Source: Bacteroidales bacterium 45-6
Lineage (GTDB): Bacteria; Bacteroidota; Bacteroidia; Bacteroidales; Dysgonomonadaceae
Direction of reading: 5' to 3'
DNA: 10,853 bases
NCBI GenBank assembly: GCA_001897035.1
Contig: MKRS01000305.1
Location: 1 to 10,853, forward strand
Position numbers and translations under genes: made by a program. Numbering within the stretch: the first letter of the stretch is position 1; every line of letters begins with the position of its first letter. Below are positions 1 to 10,853 of the stretch, in pieces. Below the pieces are notes generated by a model. The model saw nothing but the letters and a program-made list of their open reading frames with translations, ran no database searches and was not told the DNA's origin.

Positions 1-275
1 ACATCGCGGCGATCGCGAAGATCCAGCTCGAAGGGCTGCGGCGCAGGTTGGCCGATCGCGACATGGGGCTCGAGGTATCGGAGGCCGCACTCGAGCAGAT
101 CGCGAAGGTGGGCTTCGATCCGCTGTACGGCGCGCGGCCGCTGAAGCGCGCGATCCAGCAGAAGATCGAGAACCCGATCTCGCGGCTGGTGCTCGAAGGA
201 AGCTTCGGGCCCGACGACGTGATCGAGGTGGGCTATGCGAACGGGGAGTTTACGTTCGGGAAGATGGCGGGTTGA
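1..275 (+). CDS. clpB: ClpB disaggregase, C-terminal fragment (betaproteobacterial type)
   Basis: This is the last 90 or so codons of the AAA+ disaggregase ClpB, which with DnaK rescues aggregated proteins in the cytoplasm. The frame is open from base 3 and ends at TGA 273-275; the 5' part lies outside the window. The segment is the small C-terminal subdomain of the second AAA+ module. It includes the family signature GFDPLYGARPLKRAIQQKIE, whose GAR arginine is the sensor-2 residue, followed by ENPISRLVLEG. A TTG at 48 is internal and not a real start. The wording of the sequence and the strong G/C bias at third codon positions resemble Burkholderia and relatives, not the Bacteroidetes genes from about 970 onward. 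I infer that this piece was joined to the rest artificially or by a rearrangement. Confidence 0.93.
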   Translation, partial: IAAIAKIQLEGLRRRLADRDMGLEVSEAALEQIAKVGFDPLYGARPLKRAIQQKIENPISRLVLEGSFGPDDVIEVGYANGEFTFGKMAG

Positions 276-1522
276 TACGGGGAACCGGGGGCGATGCGCT
301 CCCGGGTTCCAGCAAAAGCGCCGTCCCGTCCCGTCGTGACGGCGGTGCAGTGGCTGCCGGCACAGCCCACGACCGGCATTCGCAGCAAAACGGATATCGA
401 CGAGGCCTCGGCCGAAGAGCGCGCCTGGTGATGCTGCTTTTTCTGGCCTACCTCCGTCACACCGGCCTGGATGTTGGCAACGACGGTGGTGAATGGGAGT
501 GCAGCGTGCTCTGCCCAGAAGGGCTCGGAAGATTCGAGGTTGAATGCCTTGACGACGGTGTTGTGCTTGGTGGAAGACGACGAGGCTTCTTCGGGCTTCA
601 ATTCGCTCGCGTCCACCTCGATCTTGACTCGATTCAACTTGTACGCCAACAAATCGTGGATCAGCGCCTGATATGACCACGCATGCGAGATCATCACCGA
701 CAAGTCAATATTGCGATCCACAAGCAACAGAACCGGACGATTGTAACTTCCGCCAGATTCCAGCAAATTGCCCACCGCTGATAGGTGATCGCGCAATTTA
801 GCATCCAAACGCATCGCTACAAGCTCTGCCGAGTCTCCCTTGGGGCAACGGATGATTGGAACCACACCCATCGTCACAATGACCGCAAACAGCGCGTCCA
901 CCGTCTTCGAAATGTTTTCCTCCGCTCTGGCCTCCGTTGTCGATGAATCGTGGAACTCGAAGTACGAATTTTCATGCTCGAACTGAAACAGAACTGTCCC
1001 CAGAAATCTTTTATTGTAAGTCAATGCTTTACCCAAACCAATCGTAGGATTATAATTCAAATCGCGGAAAGGAAACGAATTCTTGAACACATCCCACAAA
1101 GCCTTCTGGGTGTATGTGAGGAAGAGGTATGTCCTGAACGGGAGCTTGCTATTGGTGATCCGATGCCGGATACTTACTTGAAATTTCGCATCCGAGGTGT
1201 ATTGAGTCGGCTTTTCCGTAACGTTCGTTCCGACAATAAAATAGTTATCCTTGTAGATACCAAACGCAGGCAGCTTGTCAAATGCTGCAATGATGCTGTC
1301 GCCATTGTCATACTTGTCGGACCGCCCAAACAGCGAATTGATGGCGTTGATTGCTAGATCCTTTGGCGTCAAAGAATTTTTTATCGAATCGCTCTTGGGA
1401 CGATGAGCAACAGTGTTTTGACTTACGACCAGCGAATCAGATGACTTTCCCGTACCTATTGAGAAAACTTGTATAGGCAACAAAAAAACGACAAATACGG
1501 CAAGAATGCTACTTATCTTCAT
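233..1522 (-). CDS. pldA: Chimeric ORF: truncated outer-membrane phospholipase A joined in frame to foreign sequence
   Basis: The 429-codon frame starts at ATG 1520-1522, but only residues 1 to about 185 belong to the native gene. Residues 1-21 are a signal peptide (MKISSILAVFVVFLLPIQVF then S/I). Residues about 94-183 match outer-membrane phospholipase A (PldA/OMPLA): the strand-forming stretch FQVSIRHRI, then LPFRTYLFLTYTQKALWDV, SPFR-like FPFRDLNYNP, IGLGK and FEHE. PldA is a 12-strand barrel that hydrolyses phospholipids in the outer leaflet of the outer membrane. The catalytic motif is H-x-S-N-G. Here His183-Glu184 are present, but the sequence then leaves the family (Asn-Ser-Tyr), so the catalytic serine, the catalytic asparagine and the later strands are missing. 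Residues 187 to about 366 are a Sly1-like piece, and the tail reads antisense through clpB. The product as written cannot be an active phospholipase. The upstream half has its own promoter. Confidence 0.8.
   Translation of the reverse strand: MKISSILAVFVVFLLPIQVFSIGTGKSSDSLVVSQNTVAHRPKSDSIKNSLTPKDLAINAINSLFGRSDKYDNGDSIIAAFDKLPAFGIYKDNYFIVGTNVTEKPTQYTSDAKFQVSIRHRITNSKLPFRTYLFLTYTQKALWDVFKNSFPFRDLNYNPTIGLGKALTYNKRFLGTVLFQFEHENSYFEFHDSSTTEARAEENISKTVDALFAVIVTMGVVPIIRCPKGDSAELVAMRLDAKLRDHLSAVGNLLESGGSYNRPVLLLVDRNIDLSVMISHAWSYQALIHDLLAYKLNRVKIEVDASELKPEEASSSSTKHNTVVKAFNLESSEPFWAEHAALPFTTVVANIQAGVTEVGQKKQHHQARSSAEASSISVLLRMPVVGCAGSHCTAVTTGRDGAFAGTRERIAPGSPYQPAIFPNVNSPFA
281..310 (+). terminator. 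Possible clpB terminator hairpin
   Basis: Five bases after the clpB stop codon there is a G+C-rich stem: GGAACC-GGGGGC pairs with GCTCCC-G-GGTTCC around a 5-base loop, with one bulged G and one G-T pair. No T-tract follows, so it is an imperfect intrinsic terminator, though stems like this are common after genes in GC-rich betaproteobacteria. Confidence 0.4.
319..344. repeat. Small inverted repeat in the clpB downstream spacer
   Basis: CGCCGTC (319-325) and GACGGCG (338-344) form a perfect 7-bp inverted repeat with a 12-base loop. It lies in the very GC-rich spacer between the clpB stop and the eukaryotic-like fragment. It could be a second terminator stem or chance in GC-rich DNA. No T-tract follows. 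Confidence 0.3.
425..964 (-). pseudogene. Fragment of a eukaryotic Sly1-type Sec1/Munc18 protein
   Basis: Residues about 187-366 of the long minus-strand frame match the middle of Sly1 (SCFD1), the SM-family protein that chaperones SNARE assembly between ER and Golgi. Landmarks in family order are ENISKTVDALFAVIVTMGVV, then PIIRCPKG, then AELVAMRLDAKLRDHL, then RPVLLLVDRNIDLSV (hallmark RP-x-L-x-x-x-DRN-x-D-L), then ISHAWSYQALIHDLL, then LNRVKIE, an acidic/Ser linker, and finally LESSEPFWAEH. No intron, frameshift or stop is visible in about 540 bases, so it could be an intron-poor protist gene, one exon, or cDNA-derived. Base composition is intermediate between the flanks. SM proteins are eukaryotic and I know of no bacterial Sly1. 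Both ends are missing. The exact boundaries are uncertain: the right one is about 965-973, and the left lies somewhere between about 310 and 440. Confidence 0.82.
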
Positions 1523-1555
1523 ATAAATAAAATATCATTGAATGCTATTTATTCA

Positions 1556-1563
1556 CAAATGTA
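1556..1563 (-). promoter_or_regulatory. Bacteroidetes -7 box, pldA promoter
   Basis: On the minus strand this reads TACATTTG, an exact match to the Bacteroidetes sigma-70 -7 consensus TAnnTTTG. It ends 33 bases before the pldA ATG, which would give a 5' leader of about 25-30 bases. No clear TTTG -33 element is visible upstream at the expected spacing. Confidence 0.55.
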
Positions 1564-1609
1564 CATTAATTACTTATTCAGAGAAATAGTAACGACTTAA
1601 AAAACGGAA

Positions 1610-1674
1610 AGGTTTCCGCATTGTCGAATAGTGGCGGGGGAGCATTATCAAAATCTCCATTCCGCCTGAAACCT
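1610..1674. repeat. G+C-rich nested inverted repeat in AT-rich intergenic DNA
   Basis: The outer arms AGGTTTC (1610-1616) and GAAACCT (1668-1674) are perfect complements. Inside them GGCGG (1633-1637) pairs with CCGCC (1662-1666), and GGAG (1639-1642) pairs with CTCC (1655-1658) around a 12-base AT-rich loop. The block stands out as G+C-rich within an AT-rich intergenic region (1523-1960). A separate short palindrome, CGGAAA-GG-TTTCCG, overlaps its left edge at 1605-1618. It may be a structured RNA, a remnant palindromic repeat or an operator. I do not recognise the family, and no T-tract follows on either strand. Confidence 0.4.
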
Positions 1675-1807
1675 CCAATCCAAAAAAGCAAGTGAAAACT
1701 TTCAAATACAGGTCGGAAACAAGCCACTTTAAAATAAATAAAGAGATCAGACTTAATTTATTGAATATTATTAACAAAGTAGAATCTTCGCAGATGAAAA
1801 CAAGCAA

Positions 1808-1815
1808 TATCTTTG
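1808..1815 (+). promoter_or_regulatory. Possible -7 box for the Cys/Lys-rich protein gene
   Basis: TATCTTTG is an exact match to TAnnTTTG on the plus strand. If used, transcription would start near 1822 and give a leader of about 140 bases that contains the whole inverted repeat at 1867-1935. A -33 element is not clear, so this is a candidate only. Confidence 0.4.
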
Positions 1816-1866
1816 CTTTTGGATTCGAACGAAAACGAAGCTAAACTATCTAATAAAAATTTAGCA

Positions 1867-1935
1867 ACATGAAACGGAGCATGATTTTGTCCAATCACAA
1901 AAGTCGATGATGAAAAAATCAGGCGAGTTTCATGT
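1867..1935 (+). promoter_or_regulatory. Stem-loop in the leader of the Cys/Lys-rich protein gene
   Basis: ACATGAAAC (1867-1875) and GTTTCATGT (1927-1935) are perfect 9-base complements. Between them TTTTGT (1885-1890) pairs with ACAAAA (1897-1902) around a 6-base loop. The structure ends 25 bases before the start codon. The remaining spacer is AT-rich and includes the near-palindrome ATTAAAATTTAAT, typical of efficient Bacteroidetes translation starts. A cis-acting leader or an operator is plausible; it is not a known riboswitch class that I recognise. Confidence 0.4.
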
Positions 1936-1960
1936 CACTTAACAATTAAAATTTAATCGT

Positions 1961-2194
1961 ATGAAAAAGATGATCTTATCCGCCATGATGGCATTTGCGT
2001 TTCTTGCATCAACCAGTGTAATGGCTCAGACAACTCAGAAAGAAGCCCCTAAGGCTAAAACGGAAACAAAAGCTTGTTGCAAAAAAGACGCTAAAGGCGA
2101 ATGCACCAAGGAAGGCAAAAAAGAATGCGCTAAAAAAGAGGGTGCCAAAGATAAGTCTTGCTGCAAAAAAGACGCTAAGGCTACGAAAAAGTAA
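1961..2194 (+). CDS. Small secreted Cys/Lys-rich protein of unknown function
   Basis: The product is 77 residues. It begins with a clear signal peptide (MKKMILSAMMAFAFLASTSV, then MAQ), with likely cleavage after Ala22 or Gln23. The mature part of about 54 residues is extremely basic and hydrophilic, with about 19 lysines and 6 cysteines as CC, C, C, CC. The segment CCKKDAK occurs twice, flanking ECTKEGKKEC, so it looks like an internally duplicated module. At DNA level a 22-base direct repeat with one mismatch (2073-2094 and 2157-2178) encodes the two copies. Similar short secreted Lys/Cys-rich proteins occur in Bacteroidales, but I know no assigned function. Paired cysteines suggest metal binding or disulfides, which is inference. 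The start is supported by the signal peptide and the AT-rich upstream spacer. The gene stands alone, with its own leader stem and a strong terminator. Confidence 0.82.
   Translation: MKKMILSAMMAFAFLASTSVMAQTTQKEAPKAKTETKACCKKDAKGECTKEGKKECAKKEGAKDKSCCKKDAKATKK
2073..2178 (+). repeat. Direct repeat within the Cys/Lys-rich gene
   Basis: Copies at 2073-2094 and 2157-2178 share the core TGCAAAAAAGACGCTAA and differ at one of 22 bases. They encode the two CCKKDAK modules. Near identity at third codon positions suggests a recent intragenic duplication or recombination. Confidence 0.6.
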
Positions 2195-2214
2195 TTCTGA
2201 CAATAAGAAAGAAA

Positions 2215-2252
2215 GGGGCTATTCCATTTTGAATGGAGTAGCCCTCTTTTTT
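2215..2252 (+). terminator. Intrinsic terminator between convergent genes
   Basis: GGGCTATTCCATT (2216-2228) pairs with AATGGAGTAGCCC (2232-2244) with a single G-T pair and a 3-base loop, followed by TCTTTTTTATTT. It lies 20 bases after the Cys/Lys-rich gene. The opposite strand is also T-rich after the stem (AGCCCCTTTCTTTC), so it probably serves the convergent methyltransferase gene too. The T-tract overlaps the end of that gene. Confidence 0.88.
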
Positions 2253-3645
2253 ATTTCAGCCAGCTCTCGTTTTGCTCGGGTAAATAGCTCGACTTGATGC
2301 GCCATTCATTGGGCAGCAGATTGTTTGTCCGGTTACCAATATTTTTCACAAAACCGATGGGAGAATCCTCGTAGGCCAACAGCACGTAGCCTGTGGGCGC
2401 ATCGGGCAGGACAACAGGTTCTTTGCGGAGATAATTGACAGCCGTCTGCCTATCCACATTTTCCACGGGAAAAGCGGCTCGATTCAAATCGTTGGACAGG
2501 GCCAAAGCATGCGAAACAACCAAGTCCTTTCCTTTTTGTTCCCCTAAAAAGATTCCTGCATTCAGGATTTTCAATCCCTCACTCTGTTCGAGAAAAGCCG
2601 ACACTTGCGGCGGATAGGCTCGCCATTTGCCATTGATTTCCCGAAAGGCATAACGTTCCGGATGCAAGACAAGCCGTTCCAATCCTGTAGGTACTGGAGC
2701 CGGCTTTGCTTTTTGCTTTTTTTCTTTTTTCTTCGAAATGGCTACCTCCTCCGCTTCGGAAGTTTTGCGAAGAACAGCCATAAAGAATCCTTCACCGCAT
2801 GTACGGTGGGGAAGAAAGCGGTTAACCGCTACTTTCGATTCTGGGGACAACGAGGAGGAGATTTTCCAGTTTTCGTCAATTTGTAGCTCCACTATTTCGG
2901 CACCCAGATTATCCATAATCCAACGGACATTCTCCTCATTTTCCCTAAGGTTGTAGGTGCAAGTACTGTAAATCAGCAATCCATTTTCGTTGAGGGCTGG
3001 CCACACGTCCAACACAATCCGCTGCTGACGTTCGCAGCAAAGCTGCACATTTCCTTCCGACCATTCAGAAACAGAACCGGCATCTTTGCGGAACATTCCT
3101 TCGCCCGAACAAGGGGCATCGACTAAAATCACATCGAAAGCAGCACCCAGCCGGCCGAGGGCGAGCGGATCGTTGTTGGTGACCACCACGTTGTCAAAAC
3201 CGCTTTTCATCACATTATCGAGCAAAACATTTGCCCGGGAAGTAATCACTTCGTTACTCACCAGCAAACTGTCCCTATCTATCAACGAAGCGATGTGTGT
3301 GGACTTTCCGCCAGGCGCAGCGCACAAGTCCAACACTCGTACCGAGCCTGAAACATGCTGGCGGAAAGCTTGCTCCACAAACATGGAGGAGGCCTCCTGT
3401 ACATAATACACTCCGGCATGAAACAGCGGATCGAAAGTGAACGAAGGACGAACGGGAAGGTAAAAACCAGACTCAGACCAAGGCACGGGAGTAATGCCAT
3501 CCCATGCAAAACTTTTGCTTCGGGCTTTCACCGGATTCAGGCGGATACTGACAGGAGACGGGGCATCCAAAGCCTTTTCGAAAGCTTCCCATTGGTCGCC
3601 CAAAATGGATTGCGTATGCTGGATAAATGAAAGCGGTAGGTTCAT
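2251..3645 (-). CDS. rsmF: RsmF/NOL1-NOP2-Sun family rRNA m5C methyltransferase
   Basis: This SAM-dependent cytosine-C5 RNA methyltransferase acts in E. coli RsmF on C1407 of 16S rRNA; the exact target here is inferred. Numbering from Met at 3643-3645 (464 residues), an N-terminal domain with SIRLNP and FDPLFHAGVYYVQEASSMF leads into the Rossmann fold. The SAM motif is DLCAAPGGKST (about 106-116). Motif IV is DAPCSGEGMFRK (about 176-187, Cys179), and motif VI is YSTCTYN (about 226-232), whose Cys229 should be the nucleophile. A Lys-rich linker (SKKKEKKQKAKP) joins it to an RsmF-like C-terminal domain resembling PUA (GFVKNIGNRTNNLLPNEWRIK). The frame can be extended upstream to 3702, but the family starts at MNLPLSFIQ and the longer start would lie upstream of the candidate -7 box, so I choose 3645. 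It is divergent from the next gene and ends at a shared terminator. Confidence 0.9.
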   Translation of the reverse strand: MNLPLSFIQHTQSILGDQWEAFEKALDAPSPVSIRLNPVKARSKSFAWDGITPVPWSESGFYLPVRPSFTFDPLFHAGVYYVQEASSMFVEQAFRQHVSGSVRVLDLCAAPGGKSTHIASLIDRDSLLVSNEVITSRANVLLDNVMKSGFDNVVVTNNDPLALGRLGAAFDVILVDAPCSGEGMFRKDAGSVSEWSEGNVQLCCERQQRIVLDVWPALNENGLLIYSTCTYNLRENEENVRWIMDNLGAEIVELQIDENWKISSSLSPESKVAVNRFLPHRTCGEGFFMAVLRKTSEAEEVAISKKKEKKQKAKPAPVPTGLERLVLHPERYAFREINGKWRAYPPQVSAFLEQSEGLKILNAGIFLGEQKGKDLVVSHALALSNDLNRAAFPVENVDRQTAVNYLRKEPVVLPDAPTGYVLLAYEDSPIGFVKNIGNRTNNLLPNEWRIKSSYLPEQNESWLK

Positions 3646-3660
3646 TTCAGTAATTTTCCT

Positions 3661-3680
3661 GCAAAAATATGTATTTTTGC
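3661..3680. promoter_or_regulatory. Bidirectional promoter palindrome with two back-to-back -7 boxes
   Basis: Arms GCAAAAATA and TATTTTTGC are perfect complements around a central TG. Each arm contains TATTTTTG, an exact TAnnTTTG -7 element: 3672-3679 on the plus strand for the methylase-fmt operon, and 3662-3669 on the minus strand for rsmF. Predicted starts give a leader of about 35 bases on the plus side and a very short one (about 10 bases) for rsmF. Clear -33 elements are not visible. Confidence 0.55.
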
Positions 3681-3719
3681 AAGATAATTGAGTTACAACC
3701 AACCGCGAATATTCATTTT

Positions 3720-4424
3720 ATGCAGGCATCTGTCTATCTTATTCCCGTCACATTGGGCGAAACCTCCATCGAAAAGGTTCTTCCCACGCACAACCGAGAG
3801 ATTATTTTGAAAATAAAGTATTTTATCGTTGAAAATATCCGTTCGGCACGTCGTTTCCTCAAAAAAACGGAGCCGTCCATCCATATCGATTCGCTTACGT
3901 TTTTTGAACTCAACAAGCACACGGATGCCAACCAGATAGCCACTTACCTCGACCCGATCAAGAACGGATTCGACGTGGGAATTATTTCCGAAGCGGGATG
4001 TCCGGCTGTGGCAGACCCGGGGGCAGCCATTGTGGAAATTGCGCAAAAGAAGAACATTTCGGTGGTGCCGTTGGTCGGGCCAAGTTCCATCCTGATGTCG
4101 CTCATGGGATCGGGATTCAACGGGCAGAGCTTTGCTTTTCATGGGTATCTGCCGATTGAACAAAGCGACCGCATCCGACGCATCAAGCAGTTGGAGCAAC
4201 GGATTTACAACGAAGACCAAACCCAGATTTTTATCGAAACGCCCTACCGCAACGACAAGTTATTGAAGGATTTGGTGGAAACCTGTTCGCCTTCCACCAA
4301 ATTATGCGTGGCGGTGAACATCACGTGCAAAGATGAATTTATCAAGACATTGCCCGTGAAAGAATGGGCGAAGCGGACACCCGATTTCAGCAAAAAACCA
4401 TGCGTGTTTTTGATTTACAAATAA
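3720..4424 (+). CDS. RsmI-like SAM-dependent methyltransferase (tetrapyrrole methylase fold)
   Basis: The 234-residue product belongs to the tetrapyrrole-methylase superfamily, closest to RsmI, which 2'-O-methylates C1402 of 16S rRNA. The core RsmI landmarks are present: GIISEAGCPAVADPGAAIVE (compare ISDAGTPLISDPG), then VVPLVGPSSILMSLMGSGFN, then FAFHGYLP, and FIETPYRNDKLL near the middle of the second domain. Two differences stand out. The N-terminal segment reads VYLIPVTLGETSIEKVLP and FIVENIRSARRFLK in place of the usual PTPIGNLxD and AEDTR motifs. The C-terminal extension of E. coli RsmI (286 residues) is also absent. This is a recognisable Bacteroidetes subfamily, and its substrate may not be C1402. 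Start MQASVYLIP was preferred over the 17-codon-longer frame from 3669, which would begin inside the promoter. fmt follows after 16 bases, indicating an operon. Confidence 0.82.
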   Translation: MQASVYLIPVTLGETSIEKVLPTHNREIILKIKYFIVENIRSARRFLKKTEPSIHIDSLTFFELNKHTDANQIATYLDPIKNGFDVGIISEAGCPAVADPGAAIVEIAQKKNISVVPLVGPSSILMSLMGSGFNGQSFAFHGYLPIEQSDRIRRIKQLEQRIYNEDQTQIFIETPYRNDKLLKDLVETCSPSTKLCVAVNITCKDEFIKTLPVKEWAKRTPDFSKKPCVFLIYK

Positions 4425-4440
4425 TCGAATTTACTAAACT

Positions 4441-5394
4441 ATGACCAAACAAGACCTACGGATTGTATTTATGGGAACCCCCGACTTTGCAGTGGAGAGC
4501 CTGCGTATTTTGGTAGAAAACGGCTACAACGTGGTGGGCGTTATCACCATGCCCGACAAACCTGCCGGACGTGGACACAAACTGCAACCTTCGGCTGTGA
4601 AAAAATATGCTGTGGAGCAAAACCTTCCCTTGCTTCAACCTGAAAAATTGAAAGACGAGGCTTTCCTCGAAGCACTCAAAGGATGGCAAGCCGACCTGCA
4701 GATCGTGGTCGCTTTCCGGATGTTGCCCGAAGCGGTATGGGACATGCCCCGGCTGGGAACATTCAATCTACACGCTTCCCTACTTCCTCAATACCGTGGT
4801 GCTGCCCCTATCAACTGGGCGATTATCAACGGCGAAAGGGAAACGGGTGTCACCACTTTTTTCCTGACGCACGAGATTGATACCGGAAAAATCATCAAGC
4901 AGGAAAAAGTAGCTATTGGAGAAAACGACAATGCCGGCAAAATCCACGACGAGTTGATGAACGTGGGCGCACGGTTGGTAAAGGAAACGGTGGACGATTT
5001 GCTCGCCGACAAGGTGGATGCCATCGACCAAAGCCAATTTTTCCAAGCCGAATCGGAACTCAAAGCTGCGCCAAAGATTTTCAAAGAGACTTGCCAAATA
5101 GATTGGTCAAAACCCGCGCTACAAGTGCACAACCAAATTCGCGGACTATCCCCCTATCCCACCGCCTGGACGGAATTGAAATTGCAAGAAGCCACCGAAC
5201 CGCAATATTTCAAAGTATTTGAGACAGAAGTGATTCCCGAAGCACACGCATTGGCTCCTGCCACCGTGGTTTCCGATTTCAAAACCTACCTGCGAGTCGC
5301 CACCCCAGACGGATTCGTGGAGCTGAAAAGCATTCAGGTGCCTGGAAAAAAGGCTATGAGTGTCGGGGAATTCCTGAGGGGATGGAAGATATAA
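4441..5394 (+). CDS. fmt: Methionyl-tRNA formyltransferase
   Basis: Fmt transfers a formyl group from 10-formyl-tetrahydrofolate to Met-tRNA(fMet) before translation initiation. The 317-residue length is normal for the family. The N-terminal Rossmann-like formyltransferase domain starts RIVFMGTPDFAV (7-18), followed by the tRNA-contacting loop region MPDKPAGRGHKLQPS (37-51). The catalytic triad is Asn109, His111 (FNLHASLLPQYRGAAPINWA) and Asp147 (THEIDTG), equivalent to E. coli N106, H108 and D144. The C-terminal OB-like tRNA-binding domain spans about 206-317 and includes QIRGLSPYPTAW and the usual ending SVGEFLRGW. The gene lies 16 bases downstream of the RsmI-like gene on the same strand and probably shares its promoter. 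A terminator follows at 5489. Confidence 0.97.
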   Translation: MTKQDLRIVFMGTPDFAVESLRILVENGYNVVGVITMPDKPAGRGHKLQPSAVKKYAVEQNLPLLQPEKLKDEAFLEALKGWQADLQIVVAFRMLPEAVWDMPRLGTFNLHASLLPQYRGAAPINWAIINGERETGVTTFFLTHEIDTGKIIKQEKVAIGENDNAGKIHDELMNVGARLVKETVDDLLADKVDAIDQSQFFQAESELKAAPKIFKETCQIDWSKPALQVHNQIRGLSPYPTAWTELKLQEATEPQYFKVFETEVIPEAHALAPATVVSDFKTYLRVATPDGFVELKSIQVPGKKAMSVGEFLRGWKI

Positions 5395-5488
5395 ATCCAA
5401 AATGGAATTGTAAAGGCGAAGGCACGCAGCCACAAAGGTTTAATTCTATTGCAAAGAAAAATCGATAAGCTACAATCGAATAAAAAAT

Positions 5489-5520
5489 CGCACTGTTTGG
5501 ATAAGACGGTGCGTTTTTTT
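5489..5520 (+). terminator. fmt: Terminator of the methylase-fmt operon
   Basis: CGCACTGT (5489-5496) pairs with ACGGTGCG (5506-5513) with one T-G pair and a 9-base loop, followed directly by seven T residues. On the opposite strand the stem is followed by ATTTTTTA, so it could work in both directions. It lies 95 bases after the fmt stop codon. Confidence 0.85.
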
Positions 5521-5770
5521 GTCGGCTGCTAAAATGAGTATATTTGGAAAAAAAATGTTTGGCTAATGTCGTAAGAAAGACAACGAAAATAAACAGATTG
5601 GACAACGTCCTTCTATTCGTAATATTTCTGACAAATCTCTCCTACTTTGGATACTCCAAAACATTTTTAAAATTGCCGTTTTCCATTTCTTTATAGATTA
5701 TTTTATCTGTTTATCGAAATTAGCATGTACCTTTTTCTACTATTTCTTTAATTTTCAACTACTGATTGGC

Positions 5771-5879
5771 ATTATTTCACGCAAAGGCCGCAGAGAAAAA
5801 TACACGCAGAGGCAGCAAAGAAAATTCAAAATCTCTGCATGCTTTGCGAGAAAACTTTGCGCCCTCTGCGTGAAATAAT
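5771..5879. repeat. REP-like inverted repeat (CACGCAAAGGCCGCAGAG type)
   Basis: The left arm (5771-5791, ATTATTTCACGCAAAGGCCGC) matches the reverse complement of the right arm (5859-5879) at 19 of 21 bases. The element is modular. On the left are two direct units, CACGCAAAGGCCGCAGAG and CACGCAGAGGCAGCAAAG, each followed by an A-run. On the right are two related units in inverse orientation (CTCTGCATGCTTTGCG and CTTTGCGCCCTCTGCGTG). Dispersed intergenic repeats of this CGCAAAGG/CGCAGAGG wording are common in Bacteroidetes genomes. It sits between two convergent genes, as REP elements often do. Confidence 0.75.
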
Positions 5880-5898
5880 AATCCCGAATAGAAAAAAC

Positions 5899-5932
5899 AA
5901 AAGCGGAAACAGCTCTCGCCGTTTCCGCTTTT
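5899..5932 (-). terminator. pfp: Terminator of pfp
   Basis: AAAAGCGGAAAC (5899-5910) and GTTTCCGCTTTT (5921-5932) are perfect 12-base complements with a 10-base loop. In the minus direction the stem is followed by GTTTTTTC, a T-tract. It begins 26 bases beyond the pfp stop codon. Confidence 0.88.
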
Positions 5933-5958
5933 CTTATTTGTTCAAACAATCGATATTG

Positions 5959-7605
5959 TTACTTCTTCTGTTCCAAAGTAAGCGTTACCGTCGGTTGGTC
6001 TGCCACTTCCGAAGGACCAAAGTATTGGATTGGGCCTGGATAAACAAAATCCGTGTTCACAGCCCAAGCTTCGCGGTTTTCAGCGAAATACTGGAATGGC
6101 GCACCATCCAATTTCACCAAGGCTTTCTGGATCACAGGTTTCAATTCTCCATGACGACGTTCCATGTTCATCATCATCGTGATAGGCACACCGCCAGCAA
6201 TCCATTCTTCAGCAGGAGCAGTGGTGTTGCGTACCGAAGACATGTAGCCTGTACGTCCGGAAGCAATCAAAAGCGAAGCCGTGAATCCAAGGGAATAGCA
6301 GTAGTCTGCATCGTAGTTGGATGGAGCAGCACAACGTCCTTCGTATCCGAAGAAATGGACTTGTGAGGCAAACTTGCCTGAGTATTTTCCGGCAGCTTTC
6401 CAATCGGCCAACTTGTTGCCAACCATTTCAGCCAACAATTTTTCAGTCTCGATCAACGATACCTGCACGTTTCCGTGAGGGTCGCGATCCAATGTCAACT
6501 GACGAGCCACCCCTTCAGGAAGGCTTGCATACACTTCCGAATTTTCTTTGGAGAGGTGCGCAATGATATATTGACGCTTGTCGGCACGAGGAATAGCGTT
6601 GAACTCGTCCTGATGATGTGCAAGAAAATCGTTCAATTCGGAGATTAGCGCCTTGATGGCGGGAATAAATTCGATCAAACCTTCTGGAATCAACACTGTA
6701 CCGAAGTTATTGCCGTTCTCGGCACGTTTGGCCACAGCAGTTGCTATTTCGGTCACAACATCGTCCAAGGATGATTTTTTGGCTTCAACCTCTTCAGATA
6801 TCAAACAGATGTTAGGTTGCGTTTGAAGCGCGCATTCCAATGCGATGTGAGATGCGGAACGCCCCATCAATTTGATAAAGTGCCAGTATTTGCGGGCAGA
6901 GTTACAGTCGCGCTGGATGTTTCCGATCACTTCGGAATACACCTTGCAAGCAGTGTCGAAACCGAAAGAAGTTTCGATCATCTCGTTCTTCAAGTCACCG
7001 TCGATTGTTTTCGGGCAACCAATCACCTGAACACCGGCATTGATGGCCTTATAGTATTCGGCCAACACACAAGCATTGGTGTTGGAATCGTCGCCACCGA
7101 TTATCACGAGCGCCTTGATGTCGAGTTTCTTCAGGATTTCCAATCCTTTGTCAAATTGTTCCGCTTTCTCCAATTTTGTGCGCCCTGAACCAATGATATC
7201 GAAGCCGCCCGTGTTGCGGTATTCGTCGATAATGTTGCCGGTGAGCTGCATATATTGGTGATCGACCAATCCGCCCGGTCCCATCAAGAAACCATATAGC
7301 TTGCTGTCGATATTGAGCTTTTTGATCCCGTCATAAAGTCCGGCAATCACATTGTGTCCACCGGGAGCTTGTCCGCCGGAAAGGATGACACCCACATTGA
7401 TTGCAGGATACTCCGTGGCTTTCACGCTTTCAACAAACTTCAAGATCGGCATTCCATAGGTGTTCGGGAAAAGCTTTTGAACTTCTTCCTGATCAGCTAC
7501 AGATTCCGTAGGTTCACCCACCTCCACTTCATTGTTTCCGTATAATGCTTTCGGCATTTTCGGCTGATAAGCCGCTCTTGCTACTTGCAATGCACTTTTT
7601 TTCAT
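5959..7605 (-). CDS. pfp: Pyrophosphate-dependent 6-phosphofructokinase
   Basis: This enzyme reversibly phosphorylates fructose 6-phosphate to fructose 1,6-bisphosphate using PPi. The 548-residue length fits the long group of PPi enzymes related to the plant beta subunit. The N-terminal PPi/phosphate-loop segment is [14 protein letters not shown] (72-85). GGDDSNT (170-176) carries Asp172, where ATP enzymes have Gly, and PKTIDGD (198-204) carries Lys199; both residues are hallmarks of PPi use. Asp202 is the expected catalytic base. MGRSASH (247-253) binds the sugar phosphate, and [14 protein letters not shown] lies in the C-terminal half. An insertion around 310-390 is normal for this group. 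The start is ATG 7603-7605, preceded by an AT-rich spacer. topA lies 88 bases upstream on the same strand; co-transcription is possible, but no exact -7 box decides it. Confidence 0.96.
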
Positions 7606-7667
7606 GAGCTTAATAGTTTTTTATATTGGATATTGAATAAATAGTTATTTCCTTCCAGTTTTGCCAC

Positions 7668-7683
7668 CTTGTTCCCGAACAAG
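7668..7683. repeat. Perfect short palindrome between topA and pfp
   Basis: CTTGTTC and GAACAAG flank a CC centre, 10 bases after the topA stop codon and 62 bases before the pfp start. The 2-base centre makes an RNA hairpin strained, so a dimeric protein's operator is as likely as a processing stem. There is no T-tract, so it is not a convincing terminator. Confidence 0.3.
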
Positions 7684-7693
7684 CTGCGCGACA

Positions 7694-10084
7694 TCATTTC
7701 CCAGCCGCCGGCTTTTTCTTGGCGGTACTTTTGGCTTTGGAGGTCTTTGCCTCGGCTTTCTTTGCCGGAGTCCTTTTCCCTTTCTTGTCGCTCTCGGGAG
7801 TGGCCTTGATGATTTCCATCACCTCCTCGTAAGTAAGCGAAGCGGGTTCTTTTCCCTTCGGAATCTTGTAGTTATTCTTCTGGTGAGTGATGTAAGGGCC
7901 ATAACGCCCATTTAGTATCTGCAGCTCGGCATCTTCGGTAAATTCTTTGATGAGGCGTTCGCTGTCCTTCTTGCGTTTTTCCAAGATCAACTCGATAGCT
8001 TCTTCACTCGTTATGGAATACGGATCGCATCCCTTCGGCAAAGACACGAATTGGCTGTTGTGACGCACGTAAGGGCCAAAACGTCCAATTGCGACAGTCA
8101 TCACCTTTTCTTCAAACTCACCCAAAGTACGGGGCAAATCGAATAGCCTGAGGGCTTCCTCCAGCGTTATAGTGGAAATGGATTGGTCTTTTTGCAAGCT
8201 CGCAAACTGGGGCTTCTCTTCCTCCTCCTGCACGCCGATCTGAACCATAGGCCCAAAACGACCGATTTTCACCGAAATTTGGCGGCCAGATTTCGGATCT
8301 ACACCAAGCACACGTTCGCCAATTTTATGTTCGGTCTGGGCGTTCATCACCTCGTTCACCACAGGATGGAACAATTTGTAAAAGCCGTCGATAAGTTCCG
8401 TCCAATTCTCTTTTCCTTCTGCCACCTCATCAAACCTCTCTTCCAATCTTGCCGTGAAATTATACTTCATAATTTCAGGGAAAAATTCGGTGAGAAAATC
8501 GTTGACTACTTCTCCCGTGTCGGTTGGGAAAAGCTTGTTTTTGTCGGCACCAGTTATTTCTGTATTCTTTTCGTCGCGGATGAATCCATTTTTGAGAGTC
8601 ATCACATTGTATTCCCTCGGTGTACCTTCGATCGTCTTTTTCTCCACGTATTCGCGGTTTTGGATGGTCGAGATAGTGGGTGCATACGTGGAAGGGCGGC
8701 CAATTCCGAGTTCCTCCATTTTTTTCACCAATGAGGCCTCGGTGTAACGGGCAGGACGTTGCGAGAAACGTTCTGTGGCCGATGTCTCCGCCATTTCAAG
8801 CACCTCCCCTTTGTGCAAGGGAGGTAGCAAGTGGGAATCAGACTCTGGCTGTTCGTCGTCCGAATCCTCCATATACACGTGAAGGAAACCGTCAAACTTG
8901 ATGACTTCGCCAGCTGCTACAAACGAATAATCGCTGTTGGAGACGGAAATAGTCACGGTCGTTTTCTCCAGCTCCGCATCTGCCATCTGGGAGGCAATCG
9001 TGCGCTTCCAAATCAGGTCGTACAACTTTTTCTCCTGCGCGCTCCCGCTCACCGTATGTTCCGACATGTATGTGGGACGGATGGCCTCGTGGGCTTCCTG
9101 CGCCCCCTTGCTTTTGGTGGTATAATTGCGAGGGTGGGTATATTTTTCGCCATAACTGGCAATAATTTCAGCTTTCGAAGTATTCAATGCCAACGAAGAA
9201 AGGTTCACCGAATCGGTACGCATGTAGGTGATTTTCCCCGATTCGTAGAGGCCTTGAGCCACACGCATGGTCTGCGCCACCGTGAATCCCAATTTACGGG
9301 CAGCTTCTTGTTGGAGCGTAGAGGTGGTGAAAGGTGCCGCCGGCGAACGTTTGGTAGGTTTCGTCACCACGCTGTCGATCGTGAAATCTGCCGTTTTGAG
9401 TTTCTCCAACAAGGCAAGGGCCTCCTCTTTGGTCTTGAGGCGCTGGGGCAATTCGGCTTTCAGCTCGTAGGTGTTCCCGTTTTCCTGTTTCACAAAAATG
9501 GCAACCACACGATAGGCTGCCTCTGTTTGAAATTCCCGGATTTCACGCTCACGCTCTACGATGAGCCGCACAGCTACCGATTGCACACGACCTGCCGAGA
9601 GTGCAGGTTTTACCTTCTTCCACAACACGGGAGAAAGCTCAAATCCAACAATCCGGTCCAACACCCGGCGCGCCTGTTGGGCATCCACCAGGTTGAAATT
9701 GATTTTCCGGGGATTGTTGATGGCATTCAGTATAGCATCTTTCGTTATCTCGTGAAAAGCGATCCGCTTGGCACGGTCGTCCGTGAGGCCAAGTGTCTCA
9801 TACAAGTGCCAGGAGATGGCTTCCCCTTCGCGGTCCTCATCGGAAGCAAGCCAAACGACTTCGGCCTCCTTGGCGGCTTTTTTCAATTCCGCAACCAGCT
9901 TTTTCTTGTCAGCCGGGACTTCGTATTGAGGCTTATAGCTATTATTGAGGTCGATACCGAAATCTTTTTTCTTCAGATCTCTTATGTGTCCGTAGCTCGA
10001 AAGGACATGATAATCTTTACCAAGAAATTTTTCTATTGTCTTAGCCTTCGCTGGTGACTCTACTATGACGAGGTTTTTCTGCAT
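7694..10084 (-). CDS. topA: DNA topoisomerase I (type IA), with C-terminal repeats and Lys-rich tail
   Basis: TopA relaxes negative supercoils by passing one strand through a transient break with a 5'-phosphotyrosine link. The product is 796 residues. The N-terminal Toprim domain shows VIVESPAKAKTIEKFLG with Glu9, and the acidic metal site SDEDREGEA (81-89; Asp82, Asp84). The ALSAGRVQSVAVRLIVERE block (161-179) and the catalytic ITYMRTDSVNLS (Tyr287) follow, then the domain around ELGIGRPSTYAPTI. Instead of the Cys4 zinc fingers of E. coli TopA, the C-terminus has topoisomerase C-terminal repeats: GRFGPMVQIG, GRFGPYVRHNSQFVSLP and GRYGPYITHQKNNYKIP, with only one Cys in that part. A Lys/Ala-rich tail ends the protein (KAEAKTSKAKSTAKKKPAAG). 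The start at MQKNLVIVESPAKAKT fits the family exactly. Confidence 0.97.
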   Translation of the reverse strand: MQKNLVIVESPAKAKTIEKFLGKDYHVLSSYGHIRDLKKKDFGIDLNNSYKPQYEVPADKKKLVAELKKAAKEAEVVWLASDEDREGEAISWHLYETLGLTDDRAKRIAFHEITKDAILNAINNPRKINFNLVDAQQARRVLDRIVGFELSPVLWKKVKPALSAGRVQSVAVRLIVEREREIREFQTEAAYRVVAIFVKQENGNTYELKAELPQRLKTKEEALALLEKLKTADFTIDSVVTKPTKRSPAAPFTTSTLQQEAARKLGFTVAQTMRVAQGLYESGKITYMRTDSVNLSSLALNTSKAEIIASYGEKYTHPRNYTTKSKGAQEAHEAIRPTYMSEHTVSGSAQEKKLYDLIWKRTIASQMADAELEKTTVTISVSNSDYSFVAAGEVIKFDGFLHVYMEDSDDEQPESDSHLLPPLHKGEVLEMAETSATERFSQRPARYTEASLVKKMEELGIGRPSTYAPTISTIQNREYVEKKTIEGTPREYNVMTLKNGFIRDEKNTEITGADKNKLFPTDTGEVVNDFLTEFFPEIMKYNFTARLEERFDEVAEGKENWTELIDGFYKLFHPVVNEVMNAQTEHKIGERVLGVDPKSGRQISVKIGRFGPMVQIGVQEEEEKPQFASLQKDQSISTITLEEALRLFDLPRTLGEFEEKVMTVAIGRFGPYVRHNSQFVSLPKGCDPYSITSEEAIELILEKRKKDSERLIKEFTEDAELQILNGRYGPYITHQKNNYKIPKGKEPASLTYEEVMEIIKATPESDKKGKRTPAKKAEAKTSKAKSTAKKKPAAGK

Positions 10085-10154
10085 AATTCTTGTTTAGGTC
10101 TTATAGGGACGGCTCTAAACATCCAAGTGGCTATAAAACGGCTTAATTTCGGCG

Positions 10155-10162
10155 CAAAAATA
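10155..10162 (-). promoter_or_regulatory. topA: Bacteroidetes -7 box, topA promoter
   Basis: On the minus strand this reads TATTTTTG followed by CG, an exact TAnnTTTG element and the same octamer as in the 3661-3680 palindrome. It gives a predicted leader of about 60 bases before the topA start. A TTTG -33 element is not evident upstream. Confidence 0.55.
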
Positions 10163-10198
10163 GTGATTTTGTTTGGGGAATTCCGTATAAAAAGATAA

Positions 10199-10235
10199 AA
10201 AAGCGACAAAACAAATATTTTGCCGCTTCTTTTTT
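10199..10235 (-). terminator. Terminator of the S41 protease gene
   Basis: AAGCG-A-CAAAA (10201-10211) pairs with TTTTG-C-CGCTT (10218-10228) with one mismatch. In the minus direction the stem is followed by TTTTTTATCTTTTTATAC, a good T-tract. The plus strand also continues CTTTTTTC, so it may act in both directions. It separates the protease gene from the topA promoter. Confidence 0.8.
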
Positions 10236-10265
10236 CACTTTTTATGGTAATTTCCAATTTTTTAT

Positions 10266-10853
10266 TCAATTATTCTTTCCTTTTAATAATTGGTCGTATA
10301 GTTTCGGGCTTTCAATCACCTGCACTCCTTTTTGGAAAATATCATTCTCCTTGTTTATCACCTTGTAAAAAGAGGCTGACTCGAACAAGTCTCTCGCCAC
10401 TAAGGACTTTATTTGTAAGCCTATCAGATGCTTGGACTTTTCAAACTGCTTTTCGTCAAACTTGATTTTCTCGGCTTCAGCCATTTTGCGCAAGGTGGCG
10501 AACATGGGTTCAGTCACCTGAAACGACTGCAAATAAGTCGCTTCTGTGGGGAATTGGGCAAGCAGGTTGTTGCGTCCTTCGTCCACAATCTTCAATGCCA
10601 GCTTGTTGATGGTATTGCTGGCATACAAGGCCCGATGGAGGGCGGTGCTGTTCGTTGTGTCGATCGGCACAAAATAGTCGGGCATGATGCCTCCGCCGCC
10701 ATAGACGGTTCGTCCCGTCACTAAAGTCTTGTACTTTAACGAATCAGGAAAATGAATACTGTCAGCATTGGTCAATTCACCCTTGTTGAAGCGGGAAATC
10801 AAGTCCTGATCGTAGGCAGACCGGTCTCCTTTCACGTAAGGTTTTTGGATACA
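10266..10853 (-). CDS. S41 family carboxy-terminal processing protease, C-terminal part
   Basis: The frame is open to the window edge (first visible codons C-I-Q-K-P-Y-V-K-G-D-R) and ends at TGA 10266-10268, so about 195 residues of the C-terminus are present. The wording matches the Bacteroides-type CtpA/Prc (S41 peptidase) C-terminal region: IQKPYVKGDRSAYDQDLISR, then FNKGELTNADSIHFPDSLKY, then GRTVYGGGGIMPDYFVPIDT. The YGGGGIMPD segment belongs to the end of the protease core, and the rest is the helical C-terminal domain of this group. These enzymes act in the periplasm, cleaving proteins near their C-termini. The PDZ domain and the catalytic Ser/Lys lie upstream, outside the window, so activity cannot be judged here. 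A GTG at 10833-10835 is internal and not a start. Confidence 0.88.
   Translation of the reverse strand, partial: CIQKPYVKGDRSAYDQDLISRFNKGELTNADSIHFPDSLKYKTLVTGRTVYGGGGIMPDYFVPIDTTNSTALHRALYASNTINKLALKIVDEGRNNLLAQFPTEATYLQSFQVTEPMFATLRKMAEAEKIKFDEKQFEKSKHLIGLQIKSLVARDLFESASFYKVINKENDIFQKGVQVIESPKLYDQLLKGKNN

Follow-up and report, generated by a model that had tools for sequence, protein, structure and literature searches.

The chimeric start of contig C305 is an artefact and not a biological feature. The window, i.e., the whole stretch of 10,853 nucleotides that was analyzed, is this entire contig, one of 899 in the draft genome G000, and its first ~970 bases, in which Burkholderiaceae-like DNA and a piece of a eukaryotic Sly1 gene are joined to the host gene pldA, are almost certainly a technical chimera, generated by the assembler or by template switching, without gene transfer. 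The draft genome comprises 3.82 Mb, with an estimated completeness of 85% and contamination of 1.05%; its fragmentation and the mixture of sources suggest that it is a metagenome bin.

Segments of contig C305 and their nearest relatives

In 200-base windows the GC content is 65–67% over positions 1–500, 42–47% over 901–1500, and between 30% and 56% beyond. Positions 971–10853 are host DNA, mostly in the order of the same-genus genome G001; a second genome of the genus, G002, was available. Collinear blocks are present in contig C14 of G001: its positions 541–1095 correspond to 965–1522 of the window (84% amino acid identity), 1436–4885 to 1947–5394 (87% nucleotide identity), and 9823–14882 to 5771–10853 (83% nucleotide identity). 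The initial annotation had read the DNA from about 970 to the end as that of Bacteroidetes; the homology to G001, extending from 971 in collinear blocks to 10853, shows this DNA to be the host's own, and the assignment of the host to Bacteroidetes is a reading of the genes.

Several smaller features of the host part were observed. Between the second and the third block, G001 carries about 4.9 kb (4886–9822) against only 376 bases in the window (5395–5770), a size difference that could be either a natural indel or a further assembly fault. Positions 1961–2194 encode a small protein with a signal-like N terminus and repeated CCKK/KKDAK units, assigned to no confident Pfam family; it is found in G001 as well (L085, 1417–1689). 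Two short stretches, at about 1852–1971 and at 5771–5878, match five and nine scattered places in G001, respectively, with identities of 71–91%, and are probably dispersed repeats of the genus.

The host part begins within pldA, a gene of the phospholipase A1 family, the N-terminal part of which occupies positions 971–1522 of the reverse strand; the Pfam match (PF02253, PLA1, E 1e-13) spans 965–1522 on this strand. PldA of G001 is intact (324 aa) and shares 84% of its residues with the part encoded in the window (E 5.6e-104); its locus, the only one read in a relative, is uninterrupted. Matches to pldA were found in 18 of 41 genomes searched, the window's own included (17 of 40 relatives). For the C-terminal part of the G001 protein (136 aa), a search of G000, an incomplete genome (85%), was empty. 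In four relatives (G001:C14, G021:C21, G008:C58, and G006:C15; loci L085, L086, L087, and L093) the pldA match starts only 541–673 bases from the beginning of the contig, which would fit a neighboring stretch that is difficult to assemble.

Adjacent to pldA, the reverse strand of positions 425–988 carries a middle piece of a eukaryotic gene for Sly1, a protein of the SM family. Positions 434–964 match the Sec1/SM family of Pfam (PF00995, E 2e-35), and the best of four matches to solved structures is yeast Sly1 (1mqs, E 2e-25, residues 184–353 of the chain). The closest foreign protein, P0045, encoded by a 10,352-base JGI contig, is 92% identical over the whole piece and carries the Sec1 domain alone. 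In the tree of 29 Sly1 rows the window adjoins P0045, and the clade of 16 rows to which it belongs contains none of the named rows, whether dictyostelid, fungal or nematode. The piece covers positions 132–288 of the 575 positions of the Sec1 profile, i.e., only the middle of the protein, about 188 codons with neither start nor end; it represents neither a full-length SM protein nor, being incomplete, the intact gene of a horizontal transfer. A search of the host genome revealed no copy other than that in the window. The initial annotation had recognized a Sly1-type SM protein at 425–964; PF00995, 1mqs and P0045 agree on the type, and it is the extent, really about 425–988, that had to be corrected.

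The GC-rich start of the contig carries the C-terminal 90 codons of a Burkholderiaceae-like clpB gene (positions 1–275, forward strand), with a ClpB_D2-small domain at 3–275 (PF10431, E 1e-25). The nearest ClpB, among 80 sequences kept of 114 relatives found, is that of the metagenome-assembled genome Burkholderiales PRO4 (97% amino acid identity), and nucleotide identity to PRO4 is 92% over positions 1–305. The homology on the clpB side continues on the same strand into the region downstream of the gene (276–310, matched up to 310 by locus L005) and stops at 305–310. Fifty-nine of 74 PRO4-family genomes match some part of positions 1–440, for which no further copy besides the window was found in the host genome; three other ClpB_D2-small matches of this genome are located on C259, C894, and C881. 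The PF10431 match, the identity to PRO4, and a GC content of 65–67% thus bear out the proposed Burkholderia-like ClpB in GC-rich DNA at 1–275. The proposal that all three pieces are truncated at their junctions fails for ClpB, which is cut by the contig start and has its stop codon intact at 273–275.

Burkholderiaceae homology extends beyond the ClpB piece of the initial annotation (1–275) and reaches 432 in one genome, G057 (C50, 6639–6750; 71% nucleotide identity, E 7.6e-8), the only one to extend past 310 among the matches listed for the 74 PRO4-family genomes. A Burkholderiaceae-type antitoxin-like gene is represented by its C terminus at positions 321–432 of the forward strand: in the tblastx alignment with G057, 20 of 37 positions are identical and the stop codon is at the same place. 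The counterpart in G057 is the C terminus of a 90-residue antitoxin-like protein with a weak match to PF02604 (18.9 bits, cut-off 29.8), and its gene adjoins a downstream gene for a PIN-domain protein (PF01850, E 6e-14). The N-terminal part of the antitoxin-like gene is not in the window. Given its absence, and with clpB homology extending no further than 305–310, one more join near 311–321 is possible, in which case the Burkholderiaceae part would consist of two pieces; the clpB piece and the 321–432 piece may come from one genome or from two.

Searched separately, as had been advised, the thirds of the chimeric region have unrelated nearest relatives, namely PRO4, P0045, and G001. An origin of the foreign DNA from a mobile element or phage was considered and rejected: positions 276–1000 are unmatched in 50,697 phage records, and positions 1–440 matched 16 of 72,556 plasmid records, all within 6–176, the ClpB part.

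Junctions and the open reading frame across them

At the first junction the Burkholderiaceae alignment ends at 432, and the Sly1 relatives align through the residues HHQ within VTEVGQKKQHHQ, the last base of which is 425. The two homologies overlap by 8 nt (425–432), a length that may over- or understate the word actually shared. An end of the Sly1 piece at a splice site near 450 was rejected, since P0045 continues through the same peptide. At the second junction the nucleotide homology to G001 ends at 971, and the 18 bases 971–988, which encode FQFEHE, are homologous to both parents, P0045 reading FQFEHEN and PldA of G001 reading LQFEHES; the crossing point may lie anywhere within them. Across this junction the sequence is MFQFEHENSYFEFHD in P0045, LLQFEHESNGKSG in PldA of G001, and LFQFEHENSYFEFHD in the window.

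An open reading frame of 429 codons (233–1522, reverse strand) runs through both junctions and comprises parts of PldA and Sly1 and the antisense of the Burkholderiaceae piece; it is not a gene. It stays in frame because the second junction is a shared in-frame word encoding the same peptide in both parents, and therefore its openness is no sign of function; a real fusion protein was rejected on this account. A search with this frame, in which candidate length was limited to 0.55–1.75 of 429 aa, yielded 28 proteins matching the Sly1 part, and only the window's own protein P0044 among them contained the PLA1 domain too. The arrangement of PldA and Sly1, the presence of which in an independent genome would have spoken against an artefact, was thus seen in none of the other proteins returned, and the G001 locus runs through without it.

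A second chimeric contig and the screen of the assembly

The same defect was found in contig C300 (L104), which is foreign at both ends (1–231 and 10386–10943), with both joins in frame. Its GC content is 65% in bases 1–300 and 76% in 10501–10800. The open reading frame 2–2284 fuses YchF (match to a PDB structure of YchF, E 1e-31) to DNA polymerase III alpha. At this left join, homology to G001 starts at 221, whereas the YchF part can be aligned with G041 as far as 231, an overlap of 11 nt; it lies around DAIAYV, present in DnaE of G001, and YchF of G041 reads DAIAHV. The open reading frame from 9618 to the contig end fuses a PLP-dependent decarboxylase (PF02784), which we take to be LysA, to alanine dehydrogenase (PF01262, E 2e-46; PDB 2voe, E 5e-61). 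Host homology ends at 10400 and alanine dehydrogenase begins at 10386, an overlap of 15 nt with the word LRKGQ, for which 2voe has LRHGQ.

A stretch of 1,520 bases of G001, lying on the upstream side of the dnaE breakpoint and ending there, has no match in the incomplete G000. An empty search is by itself no evidence unless some genome is known to match, and the converse searches served as the only control for those of G000: PldA of the window and the end of C300 both matched G001 (E 5.6e-104 and 1e-182), so matches of such closeness are within reach. For the two junctions tested, the incomplete assembly thus seems to lack the native continuation, and the joins seem to sit at gaps. All three foreign tails of C305 and C300 are located at contig ends.

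Besides the window, 120 further contigs were fetched, 57 of which were readable, so that the screen covered 58 of the 899 contigs. Among these 58, only C300 and C305 had a terminal GC content above 62%. The last 250 bases of C899 are 60% GC, with no foreign gene recognized, and none was recognized in the frames read at six contig ends of outlying composition (L169, L140, L107, L183, L163, and L223), which are not thereby clean. An AT-rich stretch of about 9 kb (L108, contig C304), a candidate chimera by its GC content, was rejected after its open reading frames were read as a glycan-biosynthesis cluster. In a Markov screen, stretches from the interior of other contigs ranked as outliers as well, and composition alone therefore proves nothing. 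Either the defect is uncommon, or it is visible only where GC content differs.

The dnaE gene is essential, and a cell with only the truncated copy is therefore implausible. This bears on the reading of C305 as a real transfer mosaic, in which eukaryotic and betaproteobacterial DNA would have been integrated in the host pldA. The chimeric frame, open over 429 codons, would fit such an event; its in-frame reading is, however, a consequence of the shared word. The source genes are present only in part, pldA is intact in G001, and in C300 dnaE and lysA suffer from the same defect, with the stretch upstream of the dnaE breakpoint not found in the assembly. Real transfer is thus extremely unlikely, in line with the initial annotation, which had ranked it far below an artefact. 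A particular form of it, in which a eukaryote-associated bacterium would have acquired a real in-frame PldA-Sly1 fusion by recombination at the 18-base shared word, deserves hardly any credence; if true, the fusion could act on host membrane fusion.

Formation of the joins and comparison with known systems

The contig has the properties of a chimeric one: its segments have unrelated nearest taxa, and the parental homologies overlap briefly at the joins. Such overlaps were found at all four junctions examined in C305 and C300 (18, 8, 11, and 15 nt); they were measured through relatives of the foreign parents with mismatches allowed, may overrun by a few bases, and are not exact words. For comparison, exact identity runs were determined for 1,000,000 random pairs, each matching a position in one of 16 G000 contigs with a position in one of 11 loci from the ClpB search: the mean run was 0.65 nt, runs of at least 10 nt occurred in 7 of the 1,000,000 pairs, and runs of at least 12 nt in none. 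The null counts exact identity and the observed values are homology overlaps with mismatches, so that the two measures differ, and the true words may be a few bases longer or shorter.

Unrelated pieces would also be placed end to end by blunt ligation of cloned or adapter-ligated fragments; random joins share, however, a mean of 0.65 nt, as against homology overlaps of 8–18 nt at four of four junctions, which makes ligation very improbable. Of the options offered initially, misassembly was thus sustained, while a chimeric clone is less likely, with all four joins lying in overlapping words.

The overlaps at short words speak for the assembler, with template switching as the alternative. In the latter case a physical chimera would have formed before sequencing, by PCR or whole-genome amplification, through switching at short complementary 3' ends, and would then have been assembled faithfully. 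Template switching also leaves joins at short shared words, and the foreign pieces, from about 240 to 560 bases, have the size of fragments; C305 would, on the other hand, need two successive switches among three sources, and overlaps of 15–18 nt would be long for amplification chimeras and natural for a short k-mer. Within the technical explanation we regard switching as the lesser possibility, though one of real weight. The joining step was probably short-k-mer graph traversal or the merging of short overlaps in the assembler. By such a step, the host contig would have been falsely extended over its first ~970 bases from the point where the 3' half of pldA was left unassembled. The extension would have entered the eukaryotic Sly1 piece at 971–988, through a short word shared by chance, and would have passed from Sly1 into the Burkholderiaceae-like DNA at about 425–432 through a second shared word. 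The foreign DNA presumably came from the same mixed sample; the protist with associated bacteria suggested earlier would not be needed, as any mixed sample would suffice. A misassembly or chimera, proposed at the outset as the simplest reading, remains so: C300 has the same defect, searches of G000 for the continuations at two junctions were empty, and the arrangement was seen in no other protein of the 28 returned.

The protein P0044, translated from positions 233–1522, is present in the searched protein collection with Sec1 and phospholipase A1 domains and could be mistaken for a eukaryote-like effector or for an interdomain transfer; its value is that of a warning only. The shared-word signature suggests how such artefacts can stay in frame: in both coding sequences, the common word can be translated into one and the same peptide.

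Compared with yeast Sly1 (1mqs, PF00995), the Sly1 piece resembles the middle of the protein and differs in being a fragment inside a bacterial contig. The GUNC paper (PMC8201837) names two principal kinds of computational error to be expected in metagenome-assembled genomes; misassembly that yields chimeric contigs is one of them and is described as relatively rare. Like the chimeric contigs described there, C305 combines several sources misjoined in one contig of a draft genome; unlike them, it includes a eukaryotic source, and its joins are placed in words of about 8–18 nt.
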